DNA of 39,635 bases. Origin: a virus. The stretch is taken from IMG/VR virus record IMGVR_UViG_3300011116_001301, positions 1 through 39,635 of that record, one strand, 5' to 3'. The translations under genes were made by a program, and so were the position numbers. Of the stretch, positions 6,505-35,050 are shown piece after piece. The notes below the pieces were generated by a model. The model was not told the DNA's origin. It worked only from the letters and a program-made list of their open reading frames with translations, and searched no databases. Position 1 is the first letter of the stretch. Each line of letters opens with the position of its first letter.

Positions 6505-6633
6505 TTACTTCAACTTAGTTGTTTCAGTATAGTTTGTTTTTTGTTGTTTAATCCAGAAGATATGTTCTAATGTTTGTCTGTGTGTTAAACTACCTTTTAA
6601 GTGTGGTTTTGGTTTAATTGTTGAATGTTTCAT
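6505..6633 (-). CDS. Small 42-aa basic protein
   Basis: A short open frame whose ATG overlaps the TGA of the MORN-repeat gene (ATGA), suggesting translational coupling. The product is basic and hydrophilic (MKHSTIKPKPHLKGSL...), with no recognisable motif. It may be a real small protein or only a chance frame; the overlap and absence of a competing gene in this gap favour the former. Confidence 0.5.
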   Translation of the reverse strand: MKHSTIKPKPHLKGSLTHRQTLEHIFWIKQQKTNYTETTKLK

Positions 6634-7964
6634 AGTTTAGATATGTATGATGTTGATCCTAATAATTTATAGTAGTAATCATCTAATTTATTGATTGCTG
6701 GGTCCAAATATCTTTTATTTAATAAAGCTCTTTTAGATGGTTTAATACCATTAGCTTCTTTATTTTTGCTAATATGGAATATGGTTATATTTTCAGGTTC
6801 GTATCTTTCAATAAAATCAAGAGTTATTTTGGTAAGGGTTTCCATTATATTATATACATCATTTGTATTTAACAAACCTAAACCTTTTTTAATTGTGCTA
6901 TATTCTCTTTCCCATTTATTATCACCTAAATTATAGAATATAACCTCAAATTGATAATCATCTTTACCTGTGAAATTATATATAATTCTTCTATTATTTG
7001 GATCTGAATGTGATGGATCTAATTTATATGAATAAACTTGTCCTTCATTTAAGTTCTTTCCTTCAGTTAGGGATAAGTTTTTAGATTTACCATTTTTATA
7101 TATTATTTTATTATATAATGAACCATCAGAATTATAGTATTTCCAAATACCAACAGGTATTCCGTTTTTATATAAACCCCTAAAATGTAATTGACCATTA
7201 TAATAATATTCCCAATAACCTTCAGCTACCCCATTTTTATATGAACCCTTATATTCTAAATTACCATCACGATCATAATATTCCCACGCACCATCTAACT
7301 CACCATTCTTATATGAAGATTTTATTTCTAAATTACCATCTTCATAATATTCTTCCCAAATACCTTCTTTTTTACCATCAAGCGTATATTGATTGATAGG
7401 CTTACCATTTTTAATTGGTTGCTCTTTATTCCATTTAGCGTATCTGCTATTCTCTCCAGATAAGCCTATCGGTCTAAATAATTTCTTTTTAGGTGTTTCA
7501 GCTTCAGTTAGGGGTAATTCTTTAATCACTTTACTATTTTTATATAATTCTTTACTATGTAATTTACCATTTTCATAATAATACTCCCATATCCCTTCTT
7601 TCTCACCATTTATATATGAACCCTTAGCGAATAATTTACCATCTTCATCATAAAACTCCCATATACCATCTTCTTTACCATTCTTATAATTCCCTTTACC
7701 TAATAATTCACCTGTACTTAAATACTCTTCCCACATACCTTGTTTTACCCCTTTAATAAAGAAACCTTTACCGGATACCATTTCATCGTCAATCCAATCA
7801 TCCCAATAACCTATTGGTTTTCCATCATGCGTATATTGATTTATCTGAACCCCATCAACTATTGGTTGTTCTTTATTCCATTGAAGCCATCTTGATTTCT
7901 CACCAGATAAACCAATAGGAGCGAAAAGCTTTTTCTTTTGTTCTTCGGTAATAATAATCTTCAT
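6630..7964 (-). CDS. MORN/YwqK-repeat protein with duplicated ITEEQKKKLF module
   Basis: A 444-aa protein. It begins MKIIITEEQKKKLFAPIGLS, then has about five MORN-like repeats of the pattern (K/E)(E/D)GxWExYxxxGxLxxKgxYkNG. Near residue 160 a second KKKLFRPIGLSGE module starts another set of about four repeats. A C-terminal domain of about 130 residues has no repeats. Cut-site-like sequences (ITEE, LTEAE, LTEG, LNEG) sit at the module borders, suggesting processing by a prohead protease. The ATG at 7964 was chosen because MKI(I/V)ITEEQ also begins the proteins at 37913 and 38301. The first half is closely similar to the MORN-lysozyme protein at 33455. Likely a packaged protein; target unknown. 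Confidence 0.72.
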   Translation of the reverse strand: MKIIITEEQKKKLFAPIGLSGEKSRWLQWNKEQPIVDGVQINQYTHDGKPIGYWDDWIDDEMVSGKGFFIKGVKQGMWEEYLSTGELLGKGNYKNGKEDGIWEFYDEDGKLFAKGSYINGEKEGIWEYYYENGKLHSKELYKNSKVIKELPLTEAETPKKKLFRPIGLSGENSRYAKWNKEQPIKNGKPINQYTLDGKKEGIWEEYYEDGNLEIKSSYKNGELDGAWEYYDRDGNLEYKGSYKNGVAEGYWEYYYNGQLHFRGLYKNGIPVGIWKYYNSDGSLYNKIIYKNGKSKNLSLTEGKNLNEGQVYSYKLDPSHSDPNNRRIIYNFTGKDDYQFEVIFYNLGDNKWEREYSTIKKGLGLLNTNDVYNIMETLTKITLDFIERYEPENITIFHISKNKEANGIKPSKRALLNKRYLDPAINKLDDYYYKLLGSTSYISKL

Positions 7965-7968
7965 ATTC

Positions 7969-9063
7969 TTATTTTGCCATTGCATATAATTTAGCTAATT
8001 TCTTGATAACAACATCAGCTTCCTTAGCATTATATTCTATTTCTTTTGAGAAGAAATCCTCATTATCTTTATACTTAAATATATTTTTCTGAACCTTTAA
8101 CATAAACTTCATTGGTTCTTGACTTTTTGTCATCATTACTTGGAGCGGTGATAAATCACCAAATACCATTGAAATCATCATACCCATTGTGTTCTTTTGT
8201 AGATTTTCTCTAATATCAGTTAAAAACAAATCCACAACTTCAGACATATCCATTTGTTCAATATCTTCATAACCTTTCATATTGAGATAATATTCAATAT
8301 CATCAATATAGTTGTATAAATCCCAATAGAACTTCTTATATGTCATATTTTTAATTTTATTTAAGTGAATATAAGTTTCATCACTCTTTAAGAAGGCTAA
8401 AAAATCTTTTTTAGTGATACGTTTTGATTGAATTAAAGCAGCAATTTCACTCGGTCTTACCAATGTTTCTGCTAACGAAACAAAGTATATTGAAAAACAA
8501 AACTTAGCTATTGGTTTTATAGGGAAATTGGCATATATAGAACTATTCTGATACTTTGCTACAGCCAATAAGTTATCATATTTACCTTTTGTGTTATCGT
8601 ATCCGTGTTTCAACTCGTGAGTTATTTTAGATACCATAAAATGTTTTTTATTTGTGAAATATTTTTTAATACCATCTCTAATATCTTTATCCGATATTGT
8701 AGGCTCTCCATCATCACCAGGACAATAAAAATTAAACATTAAAGTCAATACATCACTTTTGTTTTTTATTGCTTTAACCCCATCCATTCTAAATGAAGAT
8801 TTAATAGATAAACCAGCTAAAACAATTTCATCAGCCTCAGGATGTGGTTCTACTAATATATTATAAACAATTTCTTTATATACCTCATCACCTATCTTAA
8901 ATGTATCTTTAATCACATTAGGCGTATCCATTTCCTCATCCCTTTCATCCGTTATAATATAGTTAAACTTACCTGAAAGTATTTTGTTATAGATTTCATT
9001 AGCAGTTTCTATTATACCCAATGGAACTCCAAGCGCTTCATTTAATGTATCAATCAATTTCAT
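7969..9063 (-). CDS. HExxH metalloprotein, putative packaged metallopeptidase
   Basis: A 364-aa protein with an HELKH zincin motif (about residues 149-153, in the context KITHELKHGYDN), which fits a Zn-dependent peptidase: the two His bind metal and the Glu activates water. The third ligand is not obvious. It begins MKLIDTLNEALGV, a short helix ending LNE, like a capsid-targeting peptide. A TATTTAT box lies 7 bases before its ATG and a terminator lies just upstream, so it begins a late-type unit with the MORN gene (4 bases apart). A peptidase delivered with the DNA could cleave a host factor or cell-wall peptides. Family assignment beyond HExxH is not possible by eye. Confidence 0.6.
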   Translation of the reverse strand: MKLIDTLNEALGVPLGIIETANEIYNKILSGKFNYIITDERDEEMDTPNVIKDTFKIGDEVYKEIVYNILVEPHPEADEIVLAGLSIKSSFRMDGVKAIKNKSDVLTLMFNFYCPGDDGEPTISDKDIRDGIKKYFTNKKHFMVSKITHELKHGYDNTKGKYDNLLAVAKYQNSSIYANFPIKPIAKFCFSIYFVSLAETLVRPSEIAALIQSKRITKKDFLAFLKSDETYIHLNKIKNMTYKKFYWDLYNYIDDIEYYLNMKGYEDIEQMDMSEVVDLFLTDIRENLQKNTMGMMISMVFGDLSPLQVMMTKSQEPMKFMLKVQKNIFKYKDNEDFFSKEIEYNAKEADVVIKKLAKLYAMAK

Positions 9064-12918: not shown

Positions 12919-12944
12919 AACATATTTTTCTTTTAAAATTTTTG

Positions 12945-13045
12945 TAGTCAGAACAGGATTCGAACCTGTAATGGAATCTTGCTTCCAAACCAAGTATTGT
13001 GCGTTACCGAAGGGTTGCTTGGCATCCCTATTCCGCCACCTGACT
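12945..13045 (-). ncRNA. tRNA-like element A (no canonical anticodon arm)
   Basis: On the minus strand: acceptor AGTCAGG/TCTGACT, discriminator A, T arm ACAGG-TTCGAAT-CCTGT directly joined to the acceptor as in tRNA. D arm GCG...CGC with GAAT and GGTAA in the loop, but the loop carries an inserted hairpin (AGGG at 13029-13026 with CCCT at 13014-13011, inner TGC/GCA). The anticodon arm is replaced by two crossing helices: CTTG (12994-12991) with CAAG (12981-12978), and TGGAA (12987-12983) with TTCCA (12976-12972). The second helix alone could also be read as a long variable arm, but no 5-7-5 anticodon arm is then left. Confidence 0.7.
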
Positions 13046-13225
13046 ATTTAATTATTAGCTCTTTAGCATTCTGGTTCCAGCTCCGAGAAAATCCATCTTA
13101 CTTAGCCCACCTCACCGCTGTATGGGAACTAAAGCTTACTAATAATTGAGGATGAGAAATCCCCCGTGTTGTGAGCCAAACCTTGCCATCCTAACTGACC
13201 CCTTTCTCAAGGGAACAACACTTAG
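13046..13225 (-). ncRNA. Structured RNA spacer between elements B and A, with crossing helices
   Basis: The first part (13225-13145) directly follows element B and starts CTAAGTGTTGTTCCC. GTGTTG (13221-13216) can pair with CAACAC (13171-13166), and TGAGAAA (13209-13203) with TTTCTCA (13159-13153), in the order a-b-a'-b', a pseudoknot. The same sequences recur after element E. The second part (about 13144-13050) folds as a hairpin with TTATTAG/CTAATAA, CTTTAG/CTAAAG and TTCC/GGAA helices. No open frame is convincing here. Confidence 0.5.
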
Positions 13226-13328
13226 TAGTTAGGACAGGGTTCGAACCTGTAAGCAGAGGCGGAATCCCATCTTCTGCGAGACTTTTCTAAGTGGGGCGCC
13301 AGCGGTTCCAGATTCCCGCCACCTAACT
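13226..13328 (-). ncRNA. tRNA-like element B (pseudoknot in place of anticodon arm)
   Basis: Acceptor AGTTAGG/CCTAACT (a C-to-T change matched by G-to-A on the other strand relative to the other elements, so the stem covaries), T arm ACAGG-TTCGAAC-CCTGT, D arm GCGG/CCGC with loop GAATCTGGAA. Between D and T arms: GGCG (13300-13297) pairs CGCC (13261-13258), and GCAGA (13277-13273) pairs TCTGC (13257-13253), crossing and abutting without a gap. The loop contains a small ACTT/AAGT hairpin. No normal anticodon arm. Confidence 0.72.
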
Positions 13329-13459
13329 ATGTCACTTTACAATCCAAAGTGTAAGCAGGTTTAGTTGCGGACTTTCCTTCCTGATGGGGGCTCTTTTTTT
13401 ACTCCTATGTAGGGGCAGGTATCCATCATTTTAACACGAAGCCACCGTGTAGCTCATCG
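13329..13459 (-). ncRNA. Structured RNA spacer between elements C and B
   Basis: Three helices can be read on the minus strand: ACACG/CGTGT around a 7-base loop just after element C, TGATGG/CCATCA enclosing a C-rich and A-rich segment, and CACTTT/AAAGTG around GGATTGT near element B. It also contains GGAAAGTCCG, identical to the core of a conserved RNase P RNA block, but the remaining RNase P consensus is absent. No coding frame seen. Confidence 0.4.
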
Positions 13460-13544
13460 TAGTCAGGACAGGACTTGAACCTGTATTCAGGGACTTAAAG
13501 TAAGTAACCCTCTAAGTTTGTATGACAATCAACGTCACCTGACT
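13460..13544 (-). ncRNA. tRNA-like element C (pseudoknot in place of anticodon arm)
   Basis: The shortest copy, 85 bases, close to normal tRNA size. Acceptor AGTCAGG/CCTGACT, D arm TGAC/GTCA with a 7-base loop, T arm ACAGG-TTCAAGT-CCTGT. ACTTA (13517-13513) pairs TAAGT (13497-13493), leaving a 15-base loop in which AGGG (13511-13508) can pair with CCCT (13492-13489), directly abutting the first helix. Without the second helix it would be an anticodon stem with a loop more than twice the usual size. Confidence 0.7.
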
Positions 13545-13609
13545 ATGTTCTAATTCTATGACATTCCCACTTTCTTCAGGTGCTATGAATTAGTAACAAT
13601 CTGCCTTTG
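13545..13609 (-). ncRNA. Structured RNA spacer between elements D and C
   Basis: A 65-base spacer in which CTAATTC and GAATTAG can close a hairpin of about 44 bases. It does not resemble the spacers after B and E. No gene seen. Confidence 0.35.
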
Positions 13610-13703
13610 TAGTCAGGATAGGAATTGAACCTATTCCACAGTTCGGATCTACTGAAAATACCAGCGACTACCTCCCCGAGTGCTACCATTACACCACCTG
13701 ACT
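13610..13703 (-). ncRNA. tRNA-like element D (pseudoknot in place of anticodon arm)
   Basis: Acceptor AGTCAGG/CCTGACT, D arm GTG-TAATGGTAG-CAC of ordinary tRNA form, T arm ATAGG-TTCAATT-CCTAT (T stem covaries with the other copies). TCGG (13679-13676) pairs CCGA (13646-13643), and CAGT (13654-13651) pairs ACTG (13642-13639), crossing with no gap. A weaker reading (GCTG/CAGT around GTATTTT) gives only a 4-pair stem with a U after the anticodon, so it is not favoured. Confidence 0.68.
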
Positions 13704-13792
13704 ATATTGAGGTTGAGAAATCCTCTGTGTTGGTGAATTTCTTATCTACTTACCACTTTGAAGCATTCCTTTCTCAAGGGAACAACACTTAG
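13704..13792 (-). ncRNA. Structured RNA spacer after element E, repeat of the B spacer
   Basis: It begins CTAAGTGTTGTTCCCTTGAG directly after element E, as the spacer after B does. GTGTTG (13788-13783) pairs CAACAC (13732-13727) and TTGAGAAA (13777-13770) pairs TTTCTCAA (13720-13713), crossing. The roughly 35 bases between the conserved ends differ from those of the B spacer, while both pairing segments are kept. Confidence 0.5.
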
Positions 13793-13905
13793 TAGTCAGG
13801 ACAGGAATCGAACCTGCATGTGGGTCTTATGTGTATCTCAACTATATTGCGACTTATTCCACTCCGTTTAACTATTCAGTGCGTTTACCATTCCGCCACC
13901 TGACT
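13793..13905 (-). ncRNA. tRNA-like element E (long central insert)
   Basis: Acceptor AGTCAGG/CCTGACT, D arm GCG-GAATGGTAAA-CGC, T arm GCAGG-TTCGATT-CCTGT. The region between D and T arms is 63 bases, against about 17 for anticodon arm plus short variable loop. GTGG (13862-13859) can pair with CCAC (13823-13820), matching the second helix of the other copies, but the first helix is weak (GTT/GAC only). It is the first element of the array and follows the 32-aa membrane protein gene by 6 bases. Confidence 0.6.
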
Positions 13906-14859: not shown

Positions 14860-15420
14860 TTATATTTCATTTTCCCAATCACTCGGAATACCATTACCAA
14901 TATCCTTCACACCTGTTGCCATCAAACCATCACTAATAGAACCACCAGCGATTGCGTGAATACTTCCCCAATCATCAGAACTAATATAACCTGTTGCCAA
15001 ACTACCATTACCAATAGTAGAAGGTGTATTAAACCGACCTTCACGAATATCATACCACTCCACATAACCCATTGGCACTATACCTTCAACCCTATTTCTT
15101 TCCATATCCTTTATAAGTTTTTCATATGCCTTATATATTGTGAGCCTTGAAGGTCTTCCCTCAGATTTATTAAATCCATTGGTAAAACTTGCGTAAGGGT
15201 GATTGGCAATCCATATTTCTTCATTACCCAAAATAGCACTACAACCAGTATTTCCTAAATCCCTGAAAGTATGTTCTTTCATTAAACCCCTCAATTTCTT
15301 ATCCCATTCAGAGGAATAAGATTCGTTCATACTCCAATATTGGGGATTGAATATGATTTTAATCCAAATAAAAAAATCTGAGATCCAACTTAAATCAATT
15401 GTTATTGTTTCTTTTTTCAT
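14860..15420 (-). CDS. Conserved phage protein with NGIPxxW tail
   Basis: A 186-aa protein. The region NPQYWSMNESYSSEWDKKL...HTFRDL...IWIANHPYASF recalls a phage hypothetical family of unknown function. The C-terminal 40 residues are Gly/Ser/Ile-rich and end DIGNGIPSDWENEI, with the shared tail. It overlaps the 3' end of the PurA-family gene by 4 bases (ATGA), so the two are co-translated. Confidence 0.72.
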   Translation of the reverse strand: MKKETITIDLSWISDFFIWIKIIFNPQYWSMNESYSSEWDKKLRGLMKEHTFRDLGNTGCSAILGNEEIWIANHPYASFTNGFNKSEGRPSRLTIYKAYEKLIKDMERNRVEGIVPMGYVEWYDIREGRFNTPSTIGNGSLATGYISSDDWGSIHAIAGGSISDGLMATGVKDIGNGIPSDWENEI

Positions 15421-16400
15421 ATACTTAACGCTGTTTTACTAAATACACATCTTACTTTTAATACATTCTCAATATAATTACAAAACTCATCAATGGTTTC
15501 TATTTCCATTAAAATACCTCTATGGTATAATTTATATACACCAACACTCTCCAACACATCTAATTTATTGAATACTATCTCACTACACCCATTTATATTA
15601 GATGCCATCAAAATATTATCCAAATCAATCCAATTCACTTGTCTTGCTCTACCTGTGGTTGAACCGTACTCATTCCCAACCTCTCTTATCTTATTGAATA
15701 CCAAATCATTACTCTCAAATTGTTTTGCTCCAACATATGTATTATATGCTTTAGCGATACCAATTACTTTTCTTATTTTTTGTGGTGGGACACCGTTCAT
15801 AATTGCTCCACCGACTGTACAATGTGAAGATGTTACATAAGGATAATCACCCCAATCAATATCCAATTCAAATCCCTGAGCACCTTCAAATAATATTCTA
15901 CACTCATCTTCGTTATGTAATTCTTCATATATATCAATTACATTTGCTTTCATATAATCTGAAAACCTCACACCTTTTCTCCAATACTTATCCCTGTAAG
16001 CTGGACCATTACCTGTTTTTGTTGTTCCAATTTTACTTTCACCTTCCTCTTCTTTAAGATGTTTAGGTGTGATAACATGAACCCTTTTATCAACAAATAA
16101 AAAATCTTTAACATTAATACCTTCTTTTTCAAGCCCCTCAATTTCTTCAATAAGTTTAATTGGATTTACAACACAACCAGGTCCAATAATTGATTTAATA
16201 CCATAAAAAACACCAACAGGTATAAAATGTGTAACAAACTTCTTTTCATTGTGAAAGAATGTATGTCCAGCATTTCCACCACCATTATATCTAATAACGT
16301 GTGTATATTCATTAGGGGTTGCGGCTAAGTGATGTGCCACTTTACCTTTACCTGTGTCTCCAGCTTGGAGATCTACAATAACATCTGCGTATTTAATCAT
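15417..16400 (-). CDS. Short PurA-family adenylosuccinate synthetase (PurA or PurZ0-like)
   Basis: The family couples a 6-oxopurine nucleotide with aspartate, driven by GTP (PurA, PurZ0) or ATP (PurZ). At 327 aa it is much shorter than bacterial PurA (about 430) and matches the archaeal and phage PurA/PurZ size. Visible: LQAGDTGKGK phosphate loop with the Asp of PurA kept (D15), while the usual Glu next to it is Thr; GGGNAGHT with catalytic His (H46); GTTKTGNGPAYRDK; WGDYPYVTSSHCT; the aspartate-binding loop STTGRARQVNW; and NKLDVL, the base-recognition motif of GTP users. PurZ enzymes lose the Asp, so this copy looks more like PurA or a PurZ0-type intermediate. It follows a lipoprotein gene with no gap. 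Confidence 0.85.
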   Translation of the reverse strand: MIKYADVIVDLQAGDTGKGKVAHHLAATPNEYTHVIRYNGGGNAGHTFFHNEKKFVTHFIPVGVFYGIKSIIGPGCVVNPIKLIEEIEGLEKEGINVKDFLFVDKRVHVITPKHLKEEEGESKIGTTKTGNGPAYRDKYWRKGVRFSDYMKANVIDIYEELHNEDECRILFEGAQGFELDIDWGDYPYVTSSHCTVGGAIMNGVPPQKIRKVIGIAKAYNTYVGAKQFESNDLVFNKIREVGNEYGSTTGRARQVNWIDLDNILMASNINGCSEIVFNKLDVLESVGVYKLYHRGILMEIETIDEFCNYIENVLKVRCVFSKTALSI

Positions 16401-28343: not shown

Positions 28344-28598
28344 TTACTTAAATGTTATATATCCAACCGATCTCAATTCCTTTGAGTATTCTAATACATT
28401 TCTGTATGAGTAATACAAATCTCCGTGACAATTCCTGTAATCAAATTGACTGATGAATAACTCATAAGTAATCATTTCAACCACTCTTGGTAATCCTGGT
28501 GTGTGAGTTTCAATGAAAACTCTGTAAGTTTGTTCCTGCCCTACAAATTGGGCTAATCTTAAAATATCCTTCTCAAATTGTTCTTTTGTGATAATCAT
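28344..28598 (-). CDS. Hypothetical 84-aa protein
   Basis: Not recognised. Begins MIITKEQFEKDILRLAQFVG and ends in short strands (VLEYSKELRSVGYITFK). It starts 6 bases after the smpB stop, so it is probably translated from the smpB mRNA. Confidence 0.62.
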   Translation of the reverse strand: MIITKEQFEKDILRLAQFVGQEQTYRVFIETHTPGLPRVVEMITYELFISQFDYRNCHGDLYYSYRNVLEYSKELRSVGYITFK

Positions 28599-28604
28599 AC
28601 TATA

Positions 28605-29030
28605 TTATTTATAATTTTTAAGTTCTCTTTTTGTATCTCTTTCAATATCTTTGGTTTTAATGCTATCTTTTTTATCAAAAGATTTCTTACCTTTTCCCAC
28701 ACCAATAACTACTTTAGCCAATCCTTTTACAAAGATTAGTTCCAAAGGGATTAAAGCATATCCTTTTTGGATAAACTTATTGCGGATTTTGGTTATTTCT
28801 TTCTTATTCAATAACAAGGTTTTATCTCTTTTCTCATCAGGTGAAAAAGGATTGTTTTTATTCACATATAAACCTTTAAGAATAATTGAATTGGATGTGA
28901 TTATGCAGAAAGCATCGGTGAAGTTAGATTTACCATTTCTGATAGATTTAACTTCATCCCCTTTAAGAATAATACCTGCCGTGTATTGTTCCTCAATATT
29001 GTAATCATAAAATGCTTTCCTGTTTTTCAT
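28605..29030 (-). CDS. smpB: SmpB, SsrA (tmRNA)-binding protein
   Basis: A 141-aa protein that aligns by eye along the full SmpB length: NRKAFYDYNIEEQYTAGI, LKGDEVKSIRNGKSNFTDAF (the EVKS(L/I)R.G..N..D.. signature), TLLLNKKEITKI, then KGYALIPLELIFVKGLAKVV, and a basic C-terminal tail VGKGKKSFDKKDSIKTKDIE...R. The body binds the tRNA-like domain of tmRNA and mimics the missing anticodon arm; the tail reaches into the ribosome decoding centre. Phage-encoded SmpB is unusual. No tmRNA gene was found in the window, but five tRNA-like RNAs lie 15 kb away. It has a TATCTTTG box 4 bases before the ATG. Confidence 0.92.
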   Translation of the reverse strand: MKNRKAFYDYNIEEQYTAGIILKGDEVKSIRNGKSNFTDAFCIITSNSIILKGLYVNKNNPFSPDEKRDKTLLLNKKEITKIRNKFIQKGYALIPLELIFVKGLAKVVIGVGKGKKSFDKKDSIKTKDIERDTKRELKNYK

Positions 29031-29034
29031 CCCA

Positions 29035-29042
29035 CAAAGATA
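29035..29042 (-). promoter_or_regulatory. TAnnTTTG box (TATCTTTG) of smpB
   Basis: TATCTTTG, TGGG, then the ATG at 29030. It touches the stop codon of the next gene upstream. Confidence 0.75.
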
Positions 29043-29438
29043 TTATTTATTTTTAACAATTCCAATCAATTTTCTTAAACATTCCAATTCGGCTTGTTCA
29101 TAAGTTTCATATTCCCAATCACCGGTGGGTCTATTTTTAGGCATTGTCCAGTGTTCTTCACCTGTCTTATAATTCCATATCCAATAGTTATAACCTAATT
29201 GATGTGAATGTTGATCGGTAGTTGGATCTATTGAATGTTGCCAATCATATTTCTCCCTTAGAAATCTGAAACATTGAGAAAATGTGGGAGCAACAATACC
29301 ATCTTTAATTAAATCTGATTGAATTGCTTTCCCAATCTCTAATCCGTAATCCTCAGATACATACAAAGCCAAACAAGGTTCGTTAAAACCAAGTTCTATT
29401 ACAGCCAACGCCTCTTTATATGGTGCAAAATCTTTCAT
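29043..29438 (-). CDS. DFxPYxExxxLKELGF-type protein, copy 2
   Basis: A 131-aa protein of a family I recall as common in Bacteroidetes phages and prophages. Features: DFAPYKEALAVIELGFNEPC at the start, APTFSQCFRFLREKY in the middle, and YEQAELECLRKLIGIVK at the end. Function unknown. It is a tandem paralogue of the next gene upstream, whose stop it follows by 1 base. The ATG at 29438 matches the start of that paralogue better than an upstream in-frame ATG. Confidence 0.82.
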   Translation of the reverse strand: MKDFAPYKEALAVIELGFNEPCLALYVSEDYGLEIGKAIQSDLIKDGIVAPTFSQCFRFLREKYDWQHSIDPTTDQHSHQLGYNYWIWNYKTGEEHWTMPKNRPTGDWEYETYEQAELECLRKLIGIVKNK

Positions 29439-29439
29439 A

Positions 29440-29844
29440 TTATTTTTGTTTAACAATTTCAATTAGTTTTCTAAGACAAGCAAGTTCTGCTTCTTCGTAG
29501 GTAGTAAAGTTTCCTTTTGATATATTTTCTTGGCGTTTACCATTTATATGATATGCGTGTATTTCTCCACCATAACTATATTCTGATAATACTCCACTAA
29601 ATAAAATATACTTCTCTCGAAACCAACGGAAGGCTTGTGAGAATGTTGGAGCTGAAATACAATCTCCTCCACTATCTGAGTGGCTTTCTTTATTAGTTTT
29701 TAACTTTGGATGACCCCAAATACTCGTACAAAATATAAGTTCAGGGGTATAAGTCCATTGCTTTATACAAGGTTCATCAAACCCTAATTCCTTTAATTCC
29801 ATACTTTCTGAATATGGGACAAAATCTTTTTCTAAATTATTCAT
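29440..29844 (-). CDS. DFxPYxExxxLKELGF-type protein, copy 1
   Basis: A 134-aa paralogue of the downstream gene: DFVPYSESMELKELGFDEPC, APTFSQAFRWFREKY and YEEAELACLRKLIEIVK. The middle has diverged strongly, so the duplication is old or the core is under diversifying selection. It leads the pair with a TAATTTTG box. Confidence 0.82.
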   Translation of the reverse strand: MNNLEKDFVPYSESMELKELGFDEPCIKQWTYTPELIFCTSIWGHPKLKTNKESHSDSGGDCISAPTFSQAFRWFREKYILFSGVLSEYSYGGEIHAYHINGKRQENISKGNFTTYEEAELACLRKLIEIVKQK

Positions 29845-33454: not shown

Positions 33455-35050
33455 ATGAGCGATACAAAAAAGAAAAAGTTATTCACACCTATTGGTTTAT
33501 CCGGTGAAAAATCTAGATGGATACAATGGAATAAAGATCAACCAATTAAAGATGGGATAAGGATAAATCAATACACACATGATGGTAAAAAAACTGGTTA
33601 TTGGGAAAGTTATTGGGCTAATGATAAATTAGAGAGTAAGGGTTCATATATAAATGATAAAAAAGATGGTTATTGGGAGTGGTATTGGATGAATGGTAAT
33701 TTATGGTCTAAAGGTTCATATATAAATGATAAGCAGTATGGTTTATGGGAGGGTTATAATAAACAAAGTGGCGAGTTAGAATATAGGTATATATGGAAAA
33801 ATGGTAAATTAGTTGAAAAATTACCTATAGCCGAAGCTGAAACGCCTAAAAAGAAGTTATTTAGGCCTATTGGCTTATCCGGTGAAGATAGTAGATATGA
33901 TAAATGGAACAAGGAACAACCTATTAAAGATGGAGTAAGAATAAACCAATATACAAATGATGGAAAGAAAGAGGGTTATTGGGAGGAATATCGTAATGGT
34001 TATTTATATTCTAAGGGTTTATATATAAATGATAAAAAAGAAGGTAATTGGGAGAATTATTATGAAAATGGTGGATTAGCCACCAAAGTTCCATATAAGA
34101 ATGATAAAATGAATGGTATGTGGGAACAGTATTTCCATGAAGGTCAATTACGAGCTAAAGGTTTATATAAGGATGGTAAGGAAGATGGTGTATGGGAACA
34201 TTATTTCCCTAATGGTGATTTGTATAGTAGATACTTATATGATAATGGTGAAGTAGTTGAACAATTGTTTATGGTTGAATCTAAAACCCCTTCATTTTTA
34301 TTAAAAGAAGAAATGGTTTTAATAAGAGAAGGAAATGTTCAGGATTATATTGAAAATATCCTATCCAAAATTAAAAACTTACCATATGAAACAAAAAAGA
34401 AGTATCTTACAATCGCAATTTCAACCCTATTAGGTTATACATCTTACCCTGTTATTCAATCAATTATTGATAAATCACCAGATAAAGAAGCAAGAGAAAT
34501 AACCCATAGAGTGTTGAATAAAAAAGATAATTTATCTATGTTTAACGATGGAACAAAACTTCACCTATCTAAGAAAGGACTTCAACATATAGTAGATGAA
34601 GAAAAACCAAAACTAATAGCATACGCATTGGGTGATGGTAAGATAACAGTCGGTTATGGACACGCTGAACCTATTGGAACAACAAAACTTAAAGTGGGAC
34701 AAAAAATAAGCAAAGAACAAGCAAAACAATATCTTAAACAAGATCTTAAAGTAGCTGCCGATGGAGTTAGAAGAATGTTTAGCGAATGGAAAGAACAAAA
34801 CAAAAACTATAAAGTCACTCAAGATATGTTTGATGCTTTGGTTTCAATGGCTTTTAATATAGGCGTATCAGGTTTAAGACAATCAGAAATGGTTAGACAT
34901 CTTAAATTAGGTGATTATAAAACAGCAGGACAACTCATTAAACAAACAAATATAAATCCAGATACATTCCCAGGTCTTGAAAAAAGAAGGGATAGGGAAT
35001 CTAATATGTTTTTATCATATTTATCAAAACCAACTGACGTAAATACATAA
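33455..35050 (+). CDS. MORN-repeat protein fused to GH24 lysozyme
   Basis: A 531-aa fusion. Residues 5-130 are KKKLFTPIGLSGEKSRW plus three MORN-like repeats; a second KKKLFRPIGLSGE module at about residue 130 leads four more repeats. A spacer with LLKEEMVLIREGN (possible cut site) is followed, from about residue 360, by a T4-lysozyme-like GH24 domain: LQHIVDEEKPKLIAYALGDG with the catalytic Glu, KITVGYGHAEP with the active-site Thr region, and FDALVSMAFNIGVSGLRQSE near the end. It should cut murein glycan strands. Processing at LIRE would free the lysozyme. A virion-borne lysozyme would help DNA entry; the MORN part may bind membrane or protein partners. Confidence 0.82.
   Translation: MSDTKKKKLFTPIGLSGEKSRWIQWNKDQPIKDGIRINQYTHDGKKTGYWESYWANDKLESKGSYINDKKDGYWEWYWMNGNLWSKGSYINDKQYGLWEGYNKQSGELEYRYIWKNGKLVEKLPIAEAETPKKKLFRPIGLSGEDSRYDKWNKEQPIKDGVRINQYTNDGKKEGYWEEYRNGYLYSKGLYINDKKEGNWENYYENGGLATKVPYKNDKMNGMWEQYFHEGQLRAKGLYKDGKEDGVWEHYFPNGDLYSRYLYDNGEVVEQLFMVESKTPSFLLKEEMVLIREGNVQDYIENILSKIKNLPYETKKKYLTIAISTLLGYTSYPVIQSIIDKSPDKEAREITHRVLNKKDNLSMFNDGTKLHLSKKGLQHIVDEEKPKLIAYALGDGKITVGYGHAEPIGTTKLKVGQKISKEQAKQYLKQDLKVAADGVRRMFSEWKEQNKNYKVTQDMFDALVSMAFNIGVSGLRQSEMVRHLKLGDYKTAGQLIKQTNINPDTFPGLEKRRDRESNMFLSYLSKPTDVNT

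Follow-up and report, generated by a model that had tools for sequence, protein, structure and literature searches.

A diverged SmpB gene of a large phage, probably of a Bacteroidota host, and its possible part in ribosome rescue

Components of trans-translation are already known from phages. The genes listed for huge phages include both tmRNA and SmpB (Al-Shayeb et al. 2020, PMC7162821), and tmRNAs without SmpB are reported from the phage Melnitz (PMC9004378) and from mycobacteriophages (PMC4131195). No study of phage SmpB function was found in the literature searched, most subscription journals and bioRxiv lying outside its scope. The SmpB considered here is encoded in an IMG/VR virus record of 39,635 bases, the whole of which is referred to as the window. 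It resembles the huge-phage case in that a large phage encodes SmpB alongside tRNAs and further translation genes but, unlike the tmRNA and SmpB combination listed there (PMC7162821), is accompanied by no tmRNA found in the available sequence. As in Melnitz and the mycobacteriophages, one half of the pair is supplied by the phage; the window phage supplies the protein half instead. Its SmpB clade is a separate one, with 40–46% identity to the LR7565xx, LR745206, and Lak SmpBs. Bacterial SmpB (PF01668, TIGR00086) has the same fold, length, and tail, and the closest bacterial protein shows 53% tblastn identity (L310, among the best 80 of at least 588); the phage protein differs from bacterial SmpB in its shorter central loop, in DKK instead of the usual DKR, and in its own viral clade.

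The initial annotation had called a complete SmpB unusual in a phage. This claim could not be maintained: relatives are encoded by 312 IMG/VR viral contigs, some of which are prophage flanks, and since huge phages with both SmpB and tmRNA are published (PMC7162821), existing knowledge is not overturned. The window clade is a compact case: its SmpB is diverged, a signal points to a Bacteroidota host, and its cousins have the tmRNA instead. The reading preferred here, with a probability of about 0.62, is that the phage SmpB takes part in trans-translation, most likely with the host tmRNA, rescuing ribosomes for phage proteins.

The smpB gene, its neighbourhood, and the host

The boundaries initially given for the gene proved exact, stop codon included, and the coding strand is the minus strand (Table 1), the plus strand of the same interval being interrupted by stops. 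The product scored 152.4 bits (E 1e-44; cut-off 27) against the Pfam SmpB model PF01668, 153.3 bits (cut-off 130) against NCBIfam PRK05422, and 145.8 bits (cut-off 119.1) against TIGR00086, thus exceeding the equivalog cut-offs, and it was assigned to PHROG 6791, a PHROG listed without function. These family scores are far beyond chance. With the basic C-terminal tail, KGKKSFDKKDSIKTKDIERDTKRELKNYK, also present, the description of the protein as a complete SmpB was borne out, and the ORF is confirmed as a bona fide SmpB gene.

Table 1 Positions in the window of smpB, the surrounding features, and the tRNA-like array
Feature	Position	Strand	Details
tRNA-like array	12944..13905	minus	five tRNA-like units
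Class II aminoacyl-tRNA-synthetase-like core, 276 aa	26880..27710	minus	Pfam tRNA-synt_2 E 6.4e-14; PHROG 29758 E 1e-98
ORF, 84 aa, no assigned function	28344..28598	minus	6 nt downstream of smpB
smpB	28605..29030	minus	141 aa SsrA-binding protein; ATG 29030-29028, stop 28607-28605
TATCTTTG, Bacteroidota sigma-A-type -7 box	29035..29042	minus	4 nt before smpB ATG
ORF, 139 aa, fast-evolving, no assigned function	29043..29462	minus	directly upstream of smpB
TTG, likely -33 element	29063..29065	minus	20 nt upstream of -7 box
PLP aminotransferase class I/II, 429 aa	30086..31375	minus	Pfam Aminotran_1_2 E 1.8e-34

Same-clade smpB genes were found in seven other viral contigs at 84–89% identity. In all seven relatives (six distinct sequences), the dN/dS of smpB was 0.051–0.111, with underlying dS values partly near saturation (0.8–1.4), which points to strong purifying selection. 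The two small genes upstream of smpB show only 32–43% identity among relatives; the 139 aa ORF has no family match, PHROG included, and is 33–43% identical in three relatives, and the 84 aa ORF downstream of smpB, searched against PHROG and Pfam, gave no match and has relatives in three contigs at 68–73% identity. The block around smpB is kept in the compared contigs, with the fast-evolving small gene pair and the aminotransferase on one flank and, where the contig extends far enough, small genes and the synthetase-like core on the other, downstream side, within the same gene run. The aminotransferase is the conserved neighbour of smpB in the window clade, and 49 viral loci carry relatives of it. 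The synthetase-like core, whose 276 aa leave little room for an anticodon-binding domain, has relatives in at least 594 viral stretches, including those of the cyanophages P-SSM2 and P-SSM7, where they are annotated as “tRNA ligase”.

A 98-kb contig (G005) is syntenic with the window from 30.1 to 39.6 kb and encodes a portal, a terminase (TerL), a DnaB-type helicase, and a ClpA/B-like ATPase; a second contig, G051, whose name assigns it to the sample of G005, overlaps the window from 8 to 30 kb. The window and its relatives are interpreted as fragments of a large tailed phage, and the initial placement of the gene in a phage, which a bacterial contig would have overturned, is supported by the virus record and by the structural and replication genes on the syntenic contig. 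The ClpA/B-like double AAA unfoldase of G005 (L297:6674-8680) might cooperate in the breakdown of tagged proteins, and the same contig also encodes an OrfB/TnpB-like protein and a DruA-domain protein (L299:13683-14870 and L296:7518-8693).

The SmpB tree comprised 60 of 80 viral loci, 80 bacterial loci (the best 80 of at least 588 from a profile scan, a set biased towards the query), six named phages, three relatives, and the window; 20 viral loci, including L229 (internal stop) and near-duplicates, were left out by hand. The window fell into a seven-row, viral-only clade with full support. This clade sits in a part composed of phage and Bacteroidota rows, with weakly supported deeper branches, a placement that agrees in a general way with a Bacteroidota host. 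A close bacterial donor of smpB was not found by a single-sequence scan of genome contigs, and the tree, whose bacterial rows are the best 80 of at least 588, also had none near the window.

That smpB might be bacterial DNA, or the host flank of a prophage adjoining ssrA, is suggested by StauST398-5, in which smpB stands at the very end and is followed by tmRNA, and by eight viral rows that the tree places within bacterial clades. The window gene, by contrast, lies internally, in a gene run conserved across viral contigs and in the viral-only clade; the syntenic contig carries the portal, TerL, and helicase genes; no tmRNA adjoins smpB or was found in the record; no integrase was found among the neighbours by PHROG and Pfam, and no ssrA, attachment site, or bacterial housekeeping genes were found beside smpB. 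This origin was rejected, its probability being close to nil.

The box TAnnTTTG is the -7 box of flavobacterial sigma-A, located at -12 to -5 (PMC9723704). In the window, TAnnTTTG followed by four nucleotides and ATG occurs 14 times against 1.2 expected, a count reached in none of 100 shuffles, and before smpB the box stands at the identical 4-nt spacing in six of six contigs (the window, L196, L197, L198, L200, and L202). The TTG upstream of it is presumably the -33 motif; such -33/-7 pairs number 24 in the window against 11.9 expected. With this spacing, transcription is predicted to start from the A of the ATG and to yield a leaderless smpB mRNA, and the sigma-A type of the box predicts a Bacteroidota host, so that the phage probably infects a member of this phylum. 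Leaderless mRNAs are predicted for many window genes (14 boxed ATGs). The 4-nt spacing is also dominant in G001, G005, G013, G051, and stretches of G008 and G031, and does not dominate in the G017 and G036 stretches. Leaderless messages make up only 5.5% of the mRNAs examined in Flavobacterium psychrophilum (PMC9723704).

Predicted fold, key residues, and central loop

An AlphaFold2 model built from 35 aligned sequences had a mean pLDDT of 78.7, with low confidence at the tail base (below 50 at residues 117–119), and comprised the beta-barrel core strands and a C-terminal helix (120–139). In Foldseek, all 21 PDB chains matching the model at E ≤ 0.001 were SmpB, free or ribosome-bound, as were all 15 matches of a PDB sequence search. 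The SmpB identity, which a structure prediction lacking the beta-barrel would have undermined, is therefore upheld by the model.

Alignment with E. coli K-12 SmpB gave the correspondences Y24 to Y10, Y55 to F41, L91/L92 to L73/L74, G132 to G114, K134 to K116, and H136 to the aromatic F118. E. coli D137-K138-R139 corresponds to D119-K120-K121, with D and K kept and R139 replaced by K, H22 corresponds to Y8, and T17 occupies the position of E31. The E. coli positions Y24, Y55, L91/L92, G132, K134, H136, and D137-K138-R139 contact G530, C1397, A1196, C1054, or tmRNA, or form the tail pivot (PMC4151336, PMC8363625), and residue 136 is described as broadly conserved as an aromatic (PMC4151336). By the alignment, the published key positions are retained or conservatively changed in the phage protein. 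At the tail base, the aromatic residue followed by the D-K-R stretch (E. coli 136–139) takes the form F118-D119-K120-K121; this FDKK class was also found in one bacterial row (among the best 80 of at least 588) and seven viral rows.

The central loop touches the tRNA-like domain of tmRNA (PMC4131195). Its length was taken as the spacing between the GxE(V/I)KS and xLLL motifs, which could not be measured in seven bacterial, three viral, and one host-like row. The spacing is 47 in the window SmpB and its six relatives, the loop thus being present and shortened, compared with 50 (66 rows) or 51 (seven rows) in the 73 measurable bacterial SmpBs (among the best 80 of at least 588), all of which have a loop three to four residues longer. 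Among the 52 viral rows that are not host-like, a spacing of 47 was found in seven (six of them in the window clade), 48 in four, 49 in two, and 50 or 51 in 36, with three unmeasurable. The shortened loop is an unusual point of the phage SmpB and may be an adaptation to a particular tmRNA.

The same loop can be read in another way, namely, that it yields dead tmRNA or ribosome complexes and that the protein, as a competitor of host SmpB, blocks trans-translation. The shortening is seen in all seven clade rows and some other viral SmpBs and in none of the measurable bacterial ones (within the best 80 of at least 588), no tmRNA of the phage's own is in view, and an inhibitor of tmRNA is described in DS6A, whose phage RNA is little more than a tRNA-like domain (PMC4131195, PMC11915505). 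On the other hand, the aromatic residue, the D-K pair, and the tail lysines are kept, the protein is under purifying selection, and several phages keep SmpB together with tmRNA, which argues for use of the pathway. Such a competitor is improbable. Because the tail residues needed to enter the ribosome are kept and selection is purifying, the protein is more probably a functional rescue factor than a poison.

Still less probable is a tmRNA-independent RNA-binding or regulatory role: SmpB has been reported as a transcription factor in Aeromonas (PMC7270562), but such a role would not need the ribosome-contact residues of the tail, which the phage SmpB retains.

Partner tmRNA and the proposed role

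The initial statement that no tmRNA gene is in view held for every search. None was detected in the window by ARAGORN, intron mode included, in the window and four related loci by all Rfam families at the gathering threshold, or in the complete records of the window and of its relatives by RF00023; nhmmer with filters off and a model of 27 distinct tmRNAs (25 phage-borne, two host-like) found none in the window clade, the best match having an E value of 6.2. No tmRNA was found in the window, G001–G005 (the 98-kb contig included), G013, G050, and G051, the genome being incomplete.

Among the 49 records sharing the aminotransferase, all of which were taken into the SmpB and tmRNA tests and which are related and fragmentary, 27 carry a tmRNA over the Rfam cut-off, 10 carry SmpB, and one, the 310-kb G017, carries both, 5 kb apart. 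The long-record test took in 25 of the 80 viral SmpB loci, those with contigs of at least 80 kb, together with two short clade contigs, G017, and G036; a tmRNA over the cut-off is present in 8 of the 27 SmpB-bearing viral records of at least 80 kb. Both genes, far apart in the genome, are found in LR756504, Lak-A2, and Lak-B5, and SmpB without a tmRNA over the cut-off in LR756501, LR745206, and LR756502. In large phages, SmpB without detected tmRNA, tmRNA without detected SmpB, and both together all occur, most of the records being fragments. A strict swap of halves, with SmpB or tmRNA and never both, is not a rule, given the eight long records with both.

All 27 distinct tmRNAs checked (25 phage-borne, two host-like) have G3-U70, the alanine determinant of tmRNA, and should thus be alanylated; the phage tmRNAs bearing this pair in relatives indicate that trans-translation matters to the phage group. 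The phage tmRNAs L176-L195 and L276-L283 are mostly missed by ARAGORN, and in many of them the tag frame is long (~20 aa, as in GNVLDKMALLGLVKQDELVAVA) and terminates in VA or AA. In two viral records (G006 and G007; L192 and L194), a group I intron splits the tmRNA T-loop (RF00028, 98–102 bits), an arrangement for which bacterial cases are known (PMC11915505).

These distributions bear on the possibility that the phage carries the whole trans-translation pair and that its SmpB works with a phage tmRNA in the unassembled part of the genome. The tmRNAs of the aminotransferase records, the neighbouring genes of G017, the eight long records with both genes, and the Lak-A2, Lak-B5, and LR756504 genomes, in which the two genes lie far apart, all speak for it. 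At the same time, the usual place of the tmRNA is 4.5–5.8 kb from the aminotransferase (11 of 12 placed records, 12 of the 27 tmRNA records being placed), and the window clade has none there, nor was one found elsewhere in its contigs. We regard this as a secondary possibility, clearly less probable than the use of host tmRNA.

With no phage tmRNA seen, the host tmRNA is the simplest partner for ribosome rescue, the preferred reading. From the gene, its predicted fold and conserved tail, purifying selection, the promoter-like box, and the viral context, we infer tmRNA binding, use of the host tmRNA, timing, and benefit to the phage as follows. The smpB gene would be expressed during infection from its own Bacteroidota-type promoter, and the protein would bind the tRNA-like part of tmRNA, most likely that of the host; its basic tail would enter the empty mRNA channel of stalled ribosomes, which would be rescued and then reused for phage proteins. 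In a cell whose mRNAs are cut, the expected effect of extra SmpB would be to free ribosomes for phage messages. The points against rescue are the shortened loop, the replacements of R139 by K, H22 by Y8, and E31 by T17, the low model confidence at the tail base, and the failure to find a tmRNA. Of the three roles initially proposed, rescue is thus the best supported, redirection of host tmRNA is a sub-case of it, and poisoning is disfavoured by the kept entry and accommodation residues and by purifying selection. Where phages carry rescue components of their own, the implication is that phage output is limited by ribosome stalling or that defence targets the rescue pathway of the host.

A hypervariable tRNA-like array and other genes of the window

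The array of five tRNA-like units (Table 1) is a surprising side finding and an unusual point of the window. The units combine a constant acceptor (AGTCAGG/CCTGACTA), a leucine-type D-arm, and a T-arm with a hypervariable insert that replaces the anticodon arm; letter conservation in the acceptor and T-loop follows from the way the search pattern was built, but in the D-arm and in the 5' half of the T-stem it is not imposed in this way. Similar units occur in L306 and in many of L044-L085 and L391-L470, and a pattern scan of viral contigs gave at least 120 stretches with such units. They are held by 149 of 430 scanned loci, some of which had been fetched by the same pattern, with 228 distinct units of a median length of 99 nt, and 209 inserts fell into 162 clusters, 133 of them single. 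ARAGORN called 9 of 40 tested units, and Rfam scored two as tRNA. The units are surrounded by tRNA genes, with the aminotransferase and tmRNA nearby. They were rejected as tmRNA proper, the third acceptor pair being U-A and not G-U and Rfam calling two of them tRNA.

No description of such units was found in the literature searched; they could be decoys, processing marks, or guide-like RNAs. The overall layout with an insert is shared with the tRNA-like domain of tmRNA, and it is conceivable, at a probability lower than that of the regulatory role, that the phage SmpB would bind the array units and not tmRNA, and that the two would form a rescue or decoy system operating without tmRNA in large phages of Bacteroidota. 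G3-U70 is missing from the units, and their D-arm remains of the leucine type.

Additionally, the window encodes an adenylosuccinate synthetase of the PurA/PurZ kind (15417-16400), which lies under the cut-off of both NCBIfam models and is possibly tied to modified DNA bases. MORN-repeat proteins are encoded at 6630-7985 and 33455-35050, one of them fused to a phage lysozyme, and their repeats cross-match within and between contigs.
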